A DNA stretch of 34,531 nt. Origin: Pelodictyon luteolum (GTDB lineage Bacteria; Bacteroidota; Chlorobiia; Chlorobiales; Chlorobiaceae). The notes beneath the pieces were generated by a model. That model ran no database searches. It was not told the origin of the DNA and saw only the letters and a list, made by a program, of their open reading frames with translations. The stretch lies in the NCBI GenBank assembly GCA_020721225.1, contig DYNE01000025.1:1-34531 (forward strand), read 5' to 3'. Position 1 is the first letter of the stretch, and every line of letters starts with the position of its first letter. Below, piece by piece: positions 11,053 to 34,531 of the stretch. Position numbers and translations under genes: made by a program.

Positions 11053-11125
<73 letters not shown>

Positions 11126-11261: not shown

Positions 11262-11467
11262 AAATTATGTTTTTTTTCAACTCCTGGCTGGATAGCAGGA
11301 TGGCAGCTGACAAGCCATCCTGCCTCTTCAACCTGACCCGTAACACTCAGCACGTTCTTCCGATCTCCACTCAGAACTCAGAACTAATTCCCCAATCTTC
11401 TACTGCGAAGCGATACTCCGTGATGCGACAGCGAGCATACTCCCGTTCGACCTGCGAACGATACTCC
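11262..11467 (+). repeat. Modular dispersed repeat, copy A (core plus right arm)
   Basis: This region aligns with 32040-32274. It shares the AAATTATGT linker and the CAACTCCTGGCTGG block. It also has a hairpin (stem 11296-11304 with 11314-11322), a conserved block through CTCTTCAACCTGACCC and CGATCTCCACTCAGAAC, and a right arm of boxes. The boxes are GATACTCC at 11412-11419, CATACTCCC at 11436-11444 and GATACTCC at 11460-11467. The spacer 11445-11459 is self-complementary (GTTCG/CGAAC). The left box array found in the other copies is absent. Open frames crossing this block are not believed. Sequence from 11468 to 11569 shows nothing further. Confidence 0.85.
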
Positions 11468-11569
11468 AGATCTCCGCCAACCAACTGCTCACTACCCACA
11501 ATTCTCATCTTTCCATTCCCTCATCGCCTGGTACTGGATTATACGTGCATTATTGAAAGAGAATTGGAA

Positions 11570-12022
11570 TTATGCTGTCGGTTGCAGCGACATGGCGATA
11601 TTATCTTTGATCATCTCCTCGATGTTGTTGGCCGGTATGAAGAACCTGTTGAGCGGACTTTTTTCCGTTGCATTATGCAGAATGCCTCTTGCCGTGCTTG
11701 CCGTAAGGGTTGCAAGATGTCCGGCGAAATTTTTCGGCAGGATAAAAAGGCCTTTTTCTTCATCTGCAAACAGCGACCATGAATCCGGATCAAAAGCAAA
11801 GATACAGCCGGTTTCGATTGTGATAAACGGAGTCTCTTCCTGCAGAAATACGTTTTTAAACAGTACCTTAAGCAGTTTTTTTCCGGTATCGATACCGAAG
11901 TTCAAGCCCGCATTGATTTTAACAGGAAGATTTTCTTCGATGATCTCAGGTACCAGATCGATCTGCTCGGTGGTGATTTTTACAAGCGCAAAATTTACTC
12001 TGCGGGTGTGATTGTCTGACAT
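11570..12022 (-). CDS. SecB-like protein, probable chaperone-fold
   Basis: This is a 150-residue cytoplasmic protein without signal peptide. The pattern of two beta-rich halves (VNFALVKITTEQIDLVP, then LLKVLFKNVFLQEETPFITIE) is followed by a helical end with STARGIL and FFIPANNIEEMIKD. It resembles the SecB-like family found in Bacteroidetes/Chlorobi and in toxin-antitoxin-chaperone systems. There, a T-x-R-G-I-L helix and an L/I-P-x-N block are typical. The function is inferred from this resemblance only. It lies 124 bases downstream of the caspase-like gene on the same strand, so co-transcription is possible. No toxin or antitoxin gene was recognised next to it. Confidence 0.5.
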   Translation of the reverse strand: MSDNHTRRVNFALVKITTEQIDLVPEIIEENLPVKINAGLNFGIDTGKKLLKVLFKNVFLQEETPFITIETGCIFAFDPDSWSLFADEEKGLFILPKNFAGHLATLTASTARGILHNATEKSPLNRFFIPANNIEEMIKDNIAMSLQPTA

Positions 12023-12146: not shown

Positions 12147-12974
12147 TCAGTTTCCGCTGATACCGTTTTTTTTTGTCTGGTCGCACTCAAGTTGCGGTAT
12201 CTGGGTATAGCGTCCGCTTTTCAGGCCAGCTTTTATTTTTTTCAGAAGCTCTTCTCTTGTCAGCTCGTTGTTCGAAGAACGGATTTCCCTGCAGAGAGAG
12301 TAGGTGAATGCTCCATGCCAGTTCCCTTCGATACAGGCATCGGCACTGGTTTGATCTGCCTTGCACCCCGACCAGAGGATGTGCCTGACTGATTCTTCGC
12401 TGCGCTGCAAGTCGCCAAGAGTTCTGGTTCTGAGCCCCTCGACCTGCAGGAAGGCTTTCAGCGATGGCGGGGGCATATACCGGGGTTTACGGTCATGCAG
12501 CAGATCTATAGCTCTCAGACCGGTTCCGCTGTGGCAGGTATCGAGGTAAACTTCCAGCGTGACCTTAGCAGGAATTGCAGCAAAGAGGCTGTTGAGTTCA
12601 TCGTCGGTGATGATATGATCGGCATGCCATCTGTCTCCGTCCTGCGCAAGATCGTATGGACAGAAAGCTTCATCGGCACTATCGGTTTCATCGCCCCCAG
12701 TATCGGGCACCTGAGTGCCGTGACTGGAAAAACTGAAAACAAGGTAATCATACTTTCCAGCGATAGCCCCATCGACCATTGCCTGCAATTTTGCCATTAT
12801 TCTCTCTTTGGTAGCTTTTGCATCCGTCAGCGTAGCTACGCTGTTCCTGTTGAAGCCGAAATAGGTCGTCAACAGATTTTTCATCTCTTTCGCATCGTTG
12901 ACACAGCCGTTCAGTGCGGCAGAGGGATAATGTCGGAATCGGTTTATGCCGACACATAATGCTTTTTTTGCCAT
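12147..12974 (-). CDS. Caspase-like (peptidase C14, metacaspase-type) protease
   Basis: This encodes 275 residues forming a p20-like caspase fold. It starts KKALCVGINRF, followed by LNGCVNDAKEM, the pattern of the first strand and helix. The catalytic His lies in FSSHG (about H85) and the catalytic Cys in DTCHSG (about C147). Between them the acidic DTGGDETDSADEAF-CPYD segment matches the calcium- or substrate-binding region of metacaspases. WSGCKADQTSAD and NWHGAFTYSL match the small-subunit side. Metacaspases cut after Arg/Lys. No signal peptide or extra domain is visible, so it is a minimal single-domain enzyme. Its partner or substrate is unknown. It is divergently arranged with the MurB-like gene. 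Confidence 0.88.
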   Translation of the reverse strand: MAKKALCVGINRFRHYPSAALNGCVNDAKEMKNLLTTYFGFNRNSVATLTDAKATKERIMAKLQAMVDGAIAGKYDYLVFSFSSHGTQVPDTGGDETDSADEAFCPYDLAQDGDRWHADHIITDDELNSLFAAIPAKVTLEVYLDTCHSGTGLRAIDLLHDRKPRYMPPPSLKAFLQVEGLRTRTLGDLQRSEESVRHILWSGCKADQTSADACIEGNWHGAFTYSLCREIRSSNNELTREELLKKIKAGLKSGRYTQIPQLECDQTKKNGISGN

Positions 12975-28475: not shown

Positions 28476-31400
28476 TCATGGCTGCTGGCCGTGACAGTTT
28501 TTATATTTTTTTCCGCTGCCGCAGGGGCACAGGTCGTTACGCCCTGGTTTTTTTTCGGCTATGACCGTTTGCGGTACACTCTCTCCTGCATTATCCGCAT
28601 TCGAGCCGGTCGACTCCTCGATATGCTGATAGATGCTTTCCGCGGCCTGATGCTGCGCAACAAGTTTTTCCTGTCGAAGCGCCTCCTTTTTCTGGCGTGC
28701 TTCTATTTCGCGGGCTTCGTCGGGATTGACCGGAAAAAGTTTGAAGGCCAACGAAAGTGTTTCGAGTTCTATCTCCTGCAAAAGAACGACGAACAGGCGG
28801 AAAGCCTCCTGCTTGTATTCCAGCAGAGGATCTTTCTGGCCATAGGCCCGCAGGTTTATGCCTTCCCGCAGAGAGTCGATCTCTCTCAGATGTTCCCTCC
28901 ACTTTTTATCGATGACGCTAAGCACGGCATATTTTTCAATCTGTCCCATGATCTCTTCGGGAATTTCCTTTTCCTTGCGCGAGTAGAAGGCAAGGGCGGT
29001 CTCATAGAGTTTGTCGGCAATGCCTTTTGTGCCTTCACGGTCAAACAGGCCGCTTTCAGGCCGGAACTCGACCGAAAGTTCCCTGAGCAGGCGTTCTTCA
29101 AGTTCTTCAGGATCGAACGCCTTTTCATATTTTTTGACCACCATATCGCAGTAATCTCTGAGCAGATCGAAAATATCGCTGGTCAGACGCTCTTTCTGAA
29201 GGCCGTTTTTTCTTCTTGTATAGATAACGTCACGCTGCTGATTGAGCACATCGTCATATTCAAGAAGACGTTTCCGGATGGCAAAGTTCTGCTCCTCCAC
29301 CTTTTTCTGGGCTCTTTCAATCGATTTGGTGATCATGGTGTGCTCGATGACGTCACCCTCTTCATGTCCAAGGCGGTCCATGACCGAAATAACCCGGTCG
29401 GAACCGAACAGACGCATCAGTTCATCTTCAAGCGAAACAAAAAAGACCGATTCTCCGGGATCACCCTGACGTCCCGCACGTCCGCGGAGCTGCCGGTCAA
29501 TACGGCGTGATTCATGCCGTTCCGAACCGAGAATGAAGAGTCCGCCAAGTTCCCGGACGCCGGAACCGAGCTTGATGTCGGTGCCTCGTCCGGCCATGTT
29601 CGTGGCAATGGTGACCGCTCCTTTCTGGCCGGCTGCGGCAACGATTTCAGCTTCCCGGTCATGCTGTTTTGCGTTCAGTACGCTGTGCGCTATGCGTTTG
29701 CCGCGCAGCATTCTCGAAAGGGTTTCCGACACCTCGACGCTTGCGGTTCCCACAAGTACCGGCTGCCCCTTTTTCTGCAGTTCTTCGACCTTCTCGACAA
29801 CTGCATTGTACTTTTCACGTCTGGTCTTGTAAACCAGATCGTCCATATCCTTGCGCACGATCGGTCTGTTGGTTGGAATAACCACTACATCGAGCTTGTA
29901 AATCTCGTAGAATTCCGAGGCTTCGGTTTCGGCTGTACCGGTCATGCCGGCAAGCTTTTTATAAAGGCGGAAGAAGTTCTGTATGGTGATGGTCGCCATG
30001 GTCTGTGTTTCGCCTTCGATCCTGACATTTTCCTTGGCTTCGATAGCCTGATGCAGACCGTCACTGTAGCGTCGTCCCGGCAGAATTCGTCCTGTAAATT
30101 CGTCGACAATCATCACCTTTCCCTCCTGGACGACATATTCGTCGTCGCGCTCGAAAAGCGAGAATGCCTTGAGCAGCTGGCTGATGTTGTGCAGCCTTTC
30201 GGAACGATCGGCAAAGAGCCGGTAAACCGCATCCTTCTGTTTGACTTTCTCTGCGGCGGAGAGCGAGGTATTGCTCTCTATAATGGCAATCTCCGACCCG
30301 ACATCAGGAAGGAGAAAGATGTCGCTGTCCTGATGGCTCAGGCGGCTGAGAAAATCCCGCCCCTTATCGGTCAGATCGATAGTGCCGGCTTTTTCATCAA
30401 CGGCGTAAAAGAGTTCGTCATCGACCTCGTGCATGCGACTGGCATTGTCCTTGAGAAACTCGTTTTCCGTGCCCTGCACCAGCTTTGCCAGACCCTGCTG
30501 CGAGAGCATCTTGATGAAACGGCTATTTTTTGGCTGGCCCCTTTTGACTCTCAGGAGTGCAAGCCCGGCATCGAAATCGCCCGGTTTCGTTTTAAGAATT
30601 TTTTCCGCATCGGTCAGATACGATGCCACGAGCTGCTGCTGGTTGCGGACAAGCTGATCGATCCATGGCTTGATTTCCTGAAACTTGCTGTTGTCGGCAT
30701 TGGGTACCGGACCGGAAATAATCAGCGGGGTTCTGGCTTCATCGATCAGGACGCTGTCCACCTCATCGACAATGGCGAAATAGAAATCGCGCTGCACCAT
30801 CTCTTCGACGCTGCTTGCCATGTTATCGCGGAGATAGTCAAAACCGAATTCGTTATTGGTGCCGTACGTAATATCGCACCGATACTGCTCACGGCGTTCG
30901 AACGGGTGCATGGTGTTGAGAATGACGCCTACGCTCAGGCCGTGATACTCGAATACCGGCGTCATCCACTCTTTGTCGCGCTGGGCCAGATAGTCGTTCA
31001 CCGTAACGACATGCACGCCGCGGCCGGTCAACGCATTGAGAAATATCGGAAGGGTAGAGACAAGGGTTTTACCTTCACCGGTAGCCATTTCGGATATGCG
31101 GCCTGAATGGAGTACCATGCCGCCGATAAGCTGCACGTCGTAAGGTACCATATCCCATGTCATGTCATGCCCCATCACTGTGTAAACATGCCCTTTCAAA
31201 CGGCGGCAGGTGTCTTTTACCAGGGCGAATGTATCCGGAAGAATTCCTTCGAGCACCGATACGGTTGCTTTTTCATACTCCTCAGAAAGGGTATCGAGTT
31301 CGTCGTTGATCCTGTCGGCCTCTTCAAGTGAAATATCCGGGGTGCTGAGCTTTGAGAGCAGTTCCTGTTTTTTCTCCTCCAGAGGGCGCAAGGCACCGCG

Positions 31401-31559
31401 AACCGTACTGCGCAACTGAAGCCCCTTTTCCTTTAATCCGTCGTCAGAAAGCGATTGAAAGGAGAGTTGCAGCTCGTTGATACGCTGGATAACCGGCTGT
31501 ATTTTCTTTATGTCCTTATCGTGCTTTGATCCGAATATCTTCTCAAAAATTTTCAGCAT
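28476..31559 (-). CDS. secA: Preprotein translocase ATPase SecA
   Basis: SecA drives unfolded exported proteins through SecYEG. The protein has 1027 residues, about 125 longer than Escherichia coli SecA. Walker A is ATGEGKT (about 159-165) and the DEAD-type box DEVD is at about 265-268, with [16 protein letters not shown] around it. [13 protein letters not shown] and [13 protein letters not shown] are helicase motifs of NBD2. The C-terminal zinc site is [13 protein letters not shown]. The extra length lies in the preprotein cross-linking domain region after SGPVP, and such insertions are usual in this phylum. Start [12 protein letters not shown] is canonical. Confidence 0.97.
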
Positions 31560-31724
31560 TCTTTTTAGTCGTTCGAACTTGTGTTTGGACAGGTTAAAAA
31601 CCGTATAGATAATTGTTTTCTAAGGTATTGAATTACCTACTGAGAAAAAAGATGTCATCAAGAAAAAAAGCAGGGGAGCGGGCCTTTCCGATAATCGCTT
31701 TTTAACCGATTATTCCTTTAGATT

Positions 31725-31919
31725 CAATACAAATATGCTGTTATTACCCGCCAATCCTGAAATTTCTCCCATTTTAATATAATATACGCCCGTTTTGAAC
31801 GGTGAAACCGGATGATCAGGACGCCAATTCGTTAACAACCTCTTCCTCCCGTCCCTCAGAACTCGTAGCACTTAAAACATAGCACGTAACACGATCTTTA
31901 AACCAGGACGCCAATTCGT
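31725..31919. repeat. Leader block of the modular repeat plus a 16-bp direct repeat
   Basis: The stretch 31725-31774 (CAATACAAATATGCTGTTAT, then CAATCCTGAAATTTC) aligns with 34245-34302 ahead of copy C. It therefore looks like the element's left leader. Between it and the box array of copy B lies about 175 bases not seen in copy C. This extra part contains CAGGACGCCAATTCGT twice, at 31817-31832 and 31904-31919. No gene is seen between secA (31559) and the glycosylase (32437). Confidence 0.6.
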
Positions 31920-31950
31920 GCAAATCAGTGAAAATCCGCGGGCAGAAAAA

Positions 31951-32274
31951 GGAGTATCGCTTTGCGGGAGTATCGGTCGGGTACGACCGGGAGTATCATT
32001 CGTTCCGCGAATAGGAGTGTCGCGGGTCGCGCGGCATAAAATTATGTGCTTTTTTCAACTCCTGGCTGGGTAGCTGGATGGCTGACAAGCCATCCAGCCT
32101 CTTCAACCTGACCCGTAACACTCAGCACGTTTTTCCGATCTCCACTCAGAACTCAGAACCAGGAACCAATTTCCCAATCTTCTACCGCGAAGCGATACTC
32201 CGGCAATGCGAAGCGAGCTATACTCCGCGATGCGACAGCGAGCATACTCCCGAGCACGAAGTGCCCGATACTCC
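31951..32274 (+). repeat. Modular dispersed repeat, copy B (left arm, core, right arm)
   Basis: This is the most complete copy. The left arm has boxes at 31951-31958, 31966-31974 and 31989-31997 (G)GGAGTATC, and a variant at 32013-32021. They are separated by self-complementary spacers of 7, 14 and 15 bases, and an 11-base one follows. An AT-rich linker and a hairpin (32073-32082 with 32089-32098) come next, then a conserved block. The right arm has inverted boxes at 32194-32201, 32221-32226, 32243-32251 and 32267-32274. The spacer at 32252-32266 folds with one mismatch. No protein-coding potential is believed here. From 32275 to 32436 only low-information sequence is seen. Confidence 0.87.
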
Positions 32275-32436
32275 ATTGTCAACGTAACACGAATAACAAG
32301 ATCTTCCCATCCATCGACGCATTGCTGTGGATCATGTGTGCCTGAATGAATTGGAATTACGGGAAGCGGATCAGCCGGTTTCTTCGTCCGATCACCGTAA
32401 TACGCCTTCGCCGTGATCTCTGTACGGAAAAGTGAA

Positions 32437-33408
32437 TCATGCCGTTTTGAGACGCTTGACTTTTCTGCGCCAGCAATGAAAGAGCAGATGACCGGCATAA
32501 CCGGCCAGTTCCGGCCTGAGGATGGTGCGCACCTCATCCTGAAGCCTGAGATAGTTTTTTTCCGTCAACGACATGGAGGCTCTTCGGATGCCGAACCATT
32601 CCCCCAGATACTGGCGTACATGGGTGTCGATAGGAAATGCATCGAAACGATCGAGACTGAACAGTGCGATGCAGTCGGCGATTTTCGGACCTATGCCGTC
32701 ATATTCGCAGAGTGTCGCTCTGATCCTGTCAAGGGAGAGCGATTGTACCCCGAGGGTTGAAAAGTCAAGCGCTCCATTCGCCGCCGCGGCAGCGACACGC
32801 CTGATGTTGAGGGCTCTCCGGTAATTGTTGTTGGTGCAGGCCTGCAGCGACGACACAGAAGCTTCGGCGAGAATCTCCGGTTTCGGGAAGCGGTAAAGCC
32901 GGTGTTTTTGTCCCATGAACTCGATGGTACAGGGAGCGCCAAACTTCTCGCAAAGCATGGCAATCTGCCGACGTATCAGCGCCATGCCGATTCCCTGGGC
33001 ACACATGAAGGTTATGGTTGTTTCAAACGGATCCTGACGGAGCAGCTTCAATCCCGAATACTCCTTCAACAGCTTTGCGATGACAGGAAACTGTTTTATA
33101 AAGTAATCATCAAACAGTTTTTGGTTGTCGATATCCAGTGTAAAAAAAGCCGATAGAGCCTCTGAAACAGGGATACCTCGTATGGATTCATTCGATGTAT
33201 AAATATATATACTTCCATTATCAAGCTGATGTATAACTATCGGAATTCCTTGAATTACAGATACAAAACATTTCTCCATAAATGGGATACGGTTCCATAA
33301 AAAAGATTGACCGCTGTAAAGAGATTCTTCAATAAGTATAGGGCTTATGACCTGTAATGATGATCGATTAATCAGCAAAATGATGTCGTTATTATCCAAT
33401 GTTATCAT
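32437..33408 (-). CDS. 8-oxoguanine DNA glycosylase/AP lyase, OGG1 family
   Basis: This 323-residue base-excision repair enzyme removes 8-oxoguanine. GQSFLW (about 33-38) and RQDPFETTITFMCAQ (about 124-138) are family marks. The helix-hairpin-helix contains YDGIGPKIADCIALF with the nucleophilic Lys at about 242. The catalytic Asp is in FPIDTHVRQ (about 261). There is no C-terminal Fe-S cluster as in endonuclease III; the end is basic. The first third (33.1-33.4 kb) is noticeably more A+T-rich than the rest of the gene, next to the A+T-rich tract upstream. It is bracketed by repeat copies B and C. Confidence 0.9.
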   Translation of the reverse strand: MITLDNNDIILLINRSSLQVISPILIEESLYSGQSFLWNRIPFMEKCFVSVIQGIPIVIHQLDNGSIYIYTSNESIRGIPVSEALSAFFTLDIDNQKLFDDYFIKQFPVIAKLLKEYSGLKLLRQDPFETTITFMCAQGIGMALIRRQIAMLCEKFGAPCTIEFMGQKHRLYRFPKPEILAEASVSSLQACTNNNYRRALNIRRVAAAAANGALDFSTLGVQSLSLDRIRATLCEYDGIGPKIADCIALFSLDRFDAFPIDTHVRQYLGEWFGIRRASMSLTEKNYLRLQDEVRTILRPELAGYAGHLLFHCWRRKVKRLKTA

Positions 33409-34109: not shown

Positions 34110-34244
34110 CTCATTCCGGCAGACCCGGGACGGGCAGCTTCACGGCATCATATGATTTGGAAACGCTCAATAATAAAGGTTTTTGCATCATCAGGCGCGC
34201 GTGATGCGCTGCCAGGGCATGAATGCCTGTTCTTATTCCATTTC

Positions 34245-34487
34245 CAATACAACTATGCAGTTATATTGTCCGCGACAATCCTGAAATTCCTTGCCATTAA
34301 ACAATGAAAAAGGAGTATCGCTTCGCGGGAGTATCGGTCGGGTATGACCGGGAATATCATTCGCTCCGCGAATGGGAGTATCGCGCGCCGCGCGGCATAA
34401 AATTATGTTCTTTTATCAACTCCAGGCCGGATAGCTGGATGGCGGGACAACAAAACAGCACGTTTTTTCGATCTCCACTCAGAACTT
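34245..34487 (+). repeat. Modular dispersed repeat, copy C (leader, left arm, truncated core)
   Basis: The leader (34245-34302) is followed by boxes GGAGTATC 34312-34319, GGGAGTATC 34327-34335, GGGAATATC 34350-34358 and GGGAGTATC 34374-34382. The spacers at 34320-34326, 34336-34349, 34359-34373 and 34383-34393 are each self-complementary. The linker and the first hairpin arm (GCTGGATGGC) follow, but the second arm is deleted. The conserved block resumes at ACGTTTTTTCGATCTCC and stops near 34487. No right-arm boxes are seen before the window end. Confidence 0.85.
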
Positions 34488-34531
34488 AGGGGTTTGGAAA
34501 ATACTGATATACCTATTATAATGTTTTCATA

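Follow-up and report, generated by a model that had tools for sequence, protein, structure and literature searches.

We found that each copy of the modular repeat in the window, a stretch of 34,531 nucleotides of Pelodictyon luteolum DNA, is very probably (about 85%) a MITE-like, non-autonomous DNA transposon, with ends related to those of IS630-type insertion sequences (IS) and a modular cargo that includes a box-hairpin array. The repeat has the attributes by which MITEs are recognized, namely terminal inverted repeats (TIRs), a target-site duplication (TSD), a short length without a transposase gene, and ends in common with an autonomous element of the genus. The window is contig C78 of the host genome (G000), a 2.62-Mb draft of 144 contigs in which many copies of the element are cut at contig ends. 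The three copies with a common core in the original prediction, A, B and C, are present in the window as described, but their limits had to be revised. Copy B, placed at 31951-32274, is a real repeat, but the unit is larger (31713-32356), with TIRs and a duplicated TTA at its limits; copy A, placed at 11262-11467, is left-truncated and has its true end at 11569; and copy C, placed at 34245-34487, starts at 34236 and is missing its right end near the edge of the contig. The features are as follows.

31710-31712, no strand: left TSD of copy B (TTA), read from the sequence, with the same TTA at 32357-32359
31713-32356, plus strand: copy B, complete MITE-like element of 644 bp, delimited by the TIR ends of the family, the TTA/TTA flanks and comparison of the joined flanks with genomes G103 and G001
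31713-31738, plus strand: left TIR of copy B, TTCCTTTAGATTCAATACAAATATGC, diverged from TTCCATTTCCAATACAAATATGC
31951-32035, plus strand: left arm, with boxes at 31951, 31967, 31990 and 32014 (the last being GGAGTGTC) and a hairpin spacer after each
32036-32181, plus strand: core between the arms, with the GGCTGG..GGATGGCTGACAAGCCATCCAGCC hairpin and CACTCAGAACTCAG words
32182-32274, minus strand: right arm, with inverted boxes at 32194, 32219, 32243 and 32267 plus spacers, including two weak hairpins
32333-32356, minus strand: right TIR of copy B, diverged from TTCCAATTCTATTTCAATAATGCA on the minus strand
32357-32359, no strand: right TSD of copy B (TTA)
11262-11569, plus strand: copy A, left-truncated, with an intact right TIR at 11546-11569 followed by TTA at 11570-11572
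34233-34489, plus strand: copy C, with TTA at 34233-34235, left TIR at 34236-34259, left arm and partial core, the right end being lost near the contig end

In a typical copy, the left TIR is followed by about 70 bases, four box-spacer units (GGAGTATC-GCTTCGCG, GGAGTATC-GGTCGGGTACGACC, GGAGTATC-ATTCGCTCCGCGAAT and GGAGTATC-GCGCGCCGCGCGGC) and the core; the inverted arm, with the spacers GCGAAGC, GCAATGCGAAGCGAGC, GCGATGCGACAGCGAGC and then either GTTCGC/GCGAAC or GAGCAC/GTGCTC, is followed by a linker and the right TIR. The box is a fixed 7-base word, GGAGTAT, alternating with differing hairpins, and the arrays are inverted on either side of the core. The hairpins named at the outset, GGTCG/CGACC, ATTCG/CGAAT, GTTCG/CGAAC (copy A) and GAGCAC/GTGCCC (copy B), all exist. 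In copy B, the fourth left spacer has decayed (GCGGGTCGCGCGGC), and in all copies two of the four right-arm spacers (the GCAATGCGAAGCGAGC and GCGATGCGACAGCGAGC types) are only weak hairpins. Elsewhere in the window, the product of a minus-strand ORF (12147-12974) looks like a caspase-like (metacaspase) peptidase, as judged from its SSHGTQ and DTCHSG motifs.

The genome search found further copies beyond the three in the window: copy B had 49 BLAST matches within G000, and GGAGTATCG boxes numbered 242 genome-wide, about 20 times the 12 of the reversed control (116 and 126 on the two strands versus 4 and 8 for the reversed pattern). In the window itself, GGAGTATC occurred 11 times against an expectation of 0.68, a count reached in none of 100 shuffles. 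Full-element matches were confined to three of the 65 genus genomes (G000, G004 and G104). An exact scan for box-hairpin arrays in 84,980 species, in which records very near the host's own genome were possibly excluded, gave 41 stretches; the only array-like ones were those of Chlorobi, in the Chlorobiota/Chlorobiaceae MAGs VGGK01 and JAFGMZ01, and the remaining stretches were coding or simple tandem repeats with no comparable palindromes. Within open-access papers, the literature on Chlorobium MITEs and interspersed palindromes held nothing describing the repeat.

Alignment of the flanks showed that complete copies share two sharp ends, TTCCATTTCCAATACAAATATGC and (in reverse) TTCCAATTCTATTTCAATAATGC, which read as an ungapped, imperfect inverted repeat over about 33 bases; the TIRs measure about 24-33 bases. 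The TIR consensus had 78 matches in G000 (39+39) compared with 0+0 for the reversed control, and the TIR pattern had three matches in G104 and two in G004. Identical 3-bp TNA sequences flanked 23 of the 26 two-ended copies (13 TTA, 8 TAA and 2 TGA). Since TTA and TAA make up nearly all flanks, the fair test is a permutation of the right flanks rather than a chance of 1 in 64; the permutation gave a mean of 10.2 identical pairs, and none of 100,000 trials reached 23. TNA adjoined 74 of 77 element ends. The copies measured ranged from 239 to 955 bp, and the sequences read contained repeat cargo only, with no transposase gene inside the element. Copy B sits between two genes named from their translations, secA (28476-31559) and a gene for a DNA glycosylase (32437-33408); without copy B and one TTA, its joined flanks align across the corresponding gap between these genes in G103 and G001. 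A mobilised non-autonomous element, one of the architectures originally suggested, is thus upheld by the TIRs, the 3-bp TSDs, the empty sites in relatives and the dispersal of copies at about 50 sites in G000. Growth of tandem repeats in situ, or an error of assembly, with no transposition involved, might account for the variable unit number, the box-to-box deletions and the many copies at contig ends; however, such an origin is refuted by the statistics of the TSDs and by the empty site, is also at odds with the sharp ends and with insertions common to two other species, and is given practically no credence here.

A search of the genus genomes with the TIR pattern, allowing three mismatches, showed that about 12 other genomes carry a related end, TTCCATTTCTAAATCAATAATGAA. 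This end bounds an 1118-bp IS with two ORFs, one with a winged-helix domain (HTH_23/HTH_33) and one with a DDE_3 domain, i.e., an IS630-type IS. The right ends of the IS and the element shared 45 of 56 bases (outside the bases used in the search, 25 of 32), and their left ends matched each other best, a result equalled in none of 2000 shuffles. The related IS is flanked by TNA, with matching duplications in four of five complete copies. In the IS at L276 (459-1417) and its relatives in about 12 genomes, the ORF frames overlap, possibly with a programmed frameshift, and the duplication is TNA, not TA. IS630 elements usually duplicate TA rather than TNA; here, a TA duplication is excluded because TGA/TGA cases occur, and both the element and the related IS have the 3-bp TNA. 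We therefore describe the element as related by its ends to IS630-type IS and not as a typical IS630 MITE: its ends are homologous to those of the two-ORF, DDE_3-containing IS of the genus, but it differs from the IS630 family in having no transposase inside and in its 3-bp TNA duplication.

G000 yielded no intact transposase that could be the partner; the nearest candidate was a broken relative on contig C58, about 40% identical and carrying stops and a deletion. An IS4/IS5-type partner was rejected, as PF01609 gave merely two short fragments in G000; none of the host's DDE_3 genes was flanked by the TIR; and no autonomous copy emerged among the TIR matches, the inspected single ends running into cargo, host genes or contig ends. 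We infer that an IS630-type (DDE) transposase acting in trans on the TIRs would have moved the element into TNA sites, and that this transposase may now be absent, broken or unassembled in the host. The interior is a cargo of exchangeable modules, the most prominent being the box-hairpin array, inverted on both sides of the core.

The nearest described systems are RUP and BOX of pneumococcus, and REP/RAYT is the nearest by looks. RUP of Streptococcus pneumoniae is an IS630-Spn1-related MITE of 107 bp that has been proposed to be moved in trans (PMC3049150). RUP and the present element are both short and non-coding, with TIRs resembling the ends of IS630-family IS; however, RUP is a simple 107-bp unit, whereas the element here has 239-955 bp and modular cargo, a TNA rather than a TA duplication, and a host genome in which no intact partner was found. 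The Streptococcus BOX elements (boxA-boxBn-boxC), compared by their described architecture, are likewise modular mobile repeats whose internal units vary in number (PMC3049150), but the boxB units are alike, whereas here only the 7-base box is common and each hairpin is different; moreover, the arrays here are inverted on both sides of the core and also occur outside the element.

We found that boxes diverged from the consensus at 29 of 1581 positions (1.8%) versus 244 of 4633 (5.3%) in the other arm columns, and at 16 of 772 (2.1%) versus 98 of 2269 (4.3%) when the count was restricted to copies located through their ends; variation in the boxes is lower than in their surroundings by a factor of 2-3, with p-values that overstate independence, as the copies are related. 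The fixed box is thus retained as the conserved part. Conservation of foldability, proposed at the outset together with the fixed box, is not supported within the present population: stems (82/1645, 5.0%, a total that includes the GCGCGC-spacer columns) diverged like loops (28/541, 5.2%) and like the remaining linker and core (73/1371, 5.3%), and stem changes, with unit swaps set aside and the GCGCGC spacer excluded from the pair counts, broke pairing about twice as often as they kept it, an outcome named in advance as speaking against foldability. In the GGTCG hairpin, the commonest allele is mispaired, and the few double changes that preserve pairing in the GTTCG hairpin resemble an exchange for a unit of the GAGCAC type. 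We therefore see no support for foldability being selected at present.

These counts bear on an alternative, in which the repeat acts as a folded RNA or single-stranded DNA, the boxes being single-stranded protein sites between hairpins kept by selection. The conserved boxes would agree with this, as would copy B, which folds better than its shuffles (z of -5.1 as DNA and -6.6 as RNA), and the five unlike 7-3-7 hairpins, which were picked as palindromic types (two further types being weak) and are perfect: all 35 of their 35 pairs match, versus a mean of 23 under permutation. The hairpin form thus either mattered at the origin of new units or arises by itself at that stage. However, the fold excess of copy B arises partly because the inverted boxes of both arms pair together, the predicted RNA fold pairs the two arms and buries many boxes, and the repeat had no match in Rfam, the only match in the window being a tRNA at 11053-11125. 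Together with the divergence of the stems and their broken pairs, these data make a folded functional molecule unlikely.

Within the MITE-like element, the array behaves as a separate module carried by it, since at least eight TIR elements in G000 have no boxes (in C128, C34, C4, C63, C88 and C35, and two in C27), and arrays carrying other hairpins occur without TIRs (in C37, C59 and C5, and at an orthologous place in G004/G104). Some box-free members (C4:6876-7830, C128:2017-2638, C63:109317-109834 and others; L209, L208 and L211) contain quasi-tandem short words, such as CCGTGAAAATCCGTGGGCA, GGCTACCGGCTACTGAATACCG, GCTTGATAGCTCGATAGC and TAACACGTAACACG, with some blocks present twice per element. 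Arrays change by exact box-to-box losses of units, so the box acts as the register for recombination or slippage. For example, in the orthologous insertion pairs L036/L088 and L037/L087, G000 lacks exactly one box-to-box unit present in G104 and three left-arm units present in G004, and G004 lacks one right-arm unit present in G000. The box may have been kept constant by homogenisation among hundreds of copies or by protein binding, to which we give roughly even odds. A less favoured and rather unlikely possibility is that the array is an independent module that gains palindromic units beside GGAGTAT, is bound or processed there by a putative host or mobile protein, and was captured and amplified by the IS630-related MITE; a dedicated enzyme might then build or exchange units at the box.

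The insertion common to G000 (contig C43; L036/L294) and G104 (contig C12; L088/L295) is 92-97% identical between the two species, compared with about 75% for the secA region, and a Cas10/Csm1-like ORF, named by eye, is located near it in G104. Horizontal transfer of this region together with the element is possible. In addition, L036 contains an extra stretch of about 160 bp (around 1795-1965) that is absent from G104, has inverted repeats and lies inside the left end beside TATAG; it probably represents a small mobile element of another kind, inserted within this copy.

Arrays of this appearance also recall the REP/BIME/REPIN sequences associated with RAYT, in which a fixed tag lies beside a hairpin, in both orientations, at high copy number and with species-limited distribution (PMC3733652, PMC6006769). 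The present repeat shares all of these traits, its palindromy is kept across unlike units, and G000 has five Y1_Tnp genes, so that GGAG(TATC) could be viewed as a guide tag and the hairpin as a REP that a Y1 (HUH) transposase would move in single-stranded form. However, the tag (GGAGTATC, with GGAGTAT) is not GT[AG]G, and the roughly 40 Y1 loci that we inspected in the genus all lack a flanking box array, the nearest associations being a TIR element 4 kb from a Y1 gene (C27) and a Y1-like frame remnant beside one insertion (C43). The Y1 (RAYT-like) ORF on C9 of G000 (337-1020; L062/L156) has a different, 30-base inverted repeat of its own, CCCCTGGGAACGCGGAGCCCCGGCTCCGCA, a candidate REP. Y1 genes are present in 47 of 65 genus genomes, versus three for the full element. 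IS200/IS605-type transposition makes no TIRs or TSDs, both of which are found in the dispersed copies. We consider mobilization by Y1 highly improbable.

On the MITE-like reading, a striking dispersed repeat becomes a population of transposons whose ends, target site and relatives are defined and whose most conserved piece is a 7-base box and not a fold. Empty sites and orthologous insertions make the element datable, and the combination of a constant word with many unlike palindromes, reshuffled as exact units, offers a tractable case for the birth and spread of bacterial palindromic repeats.
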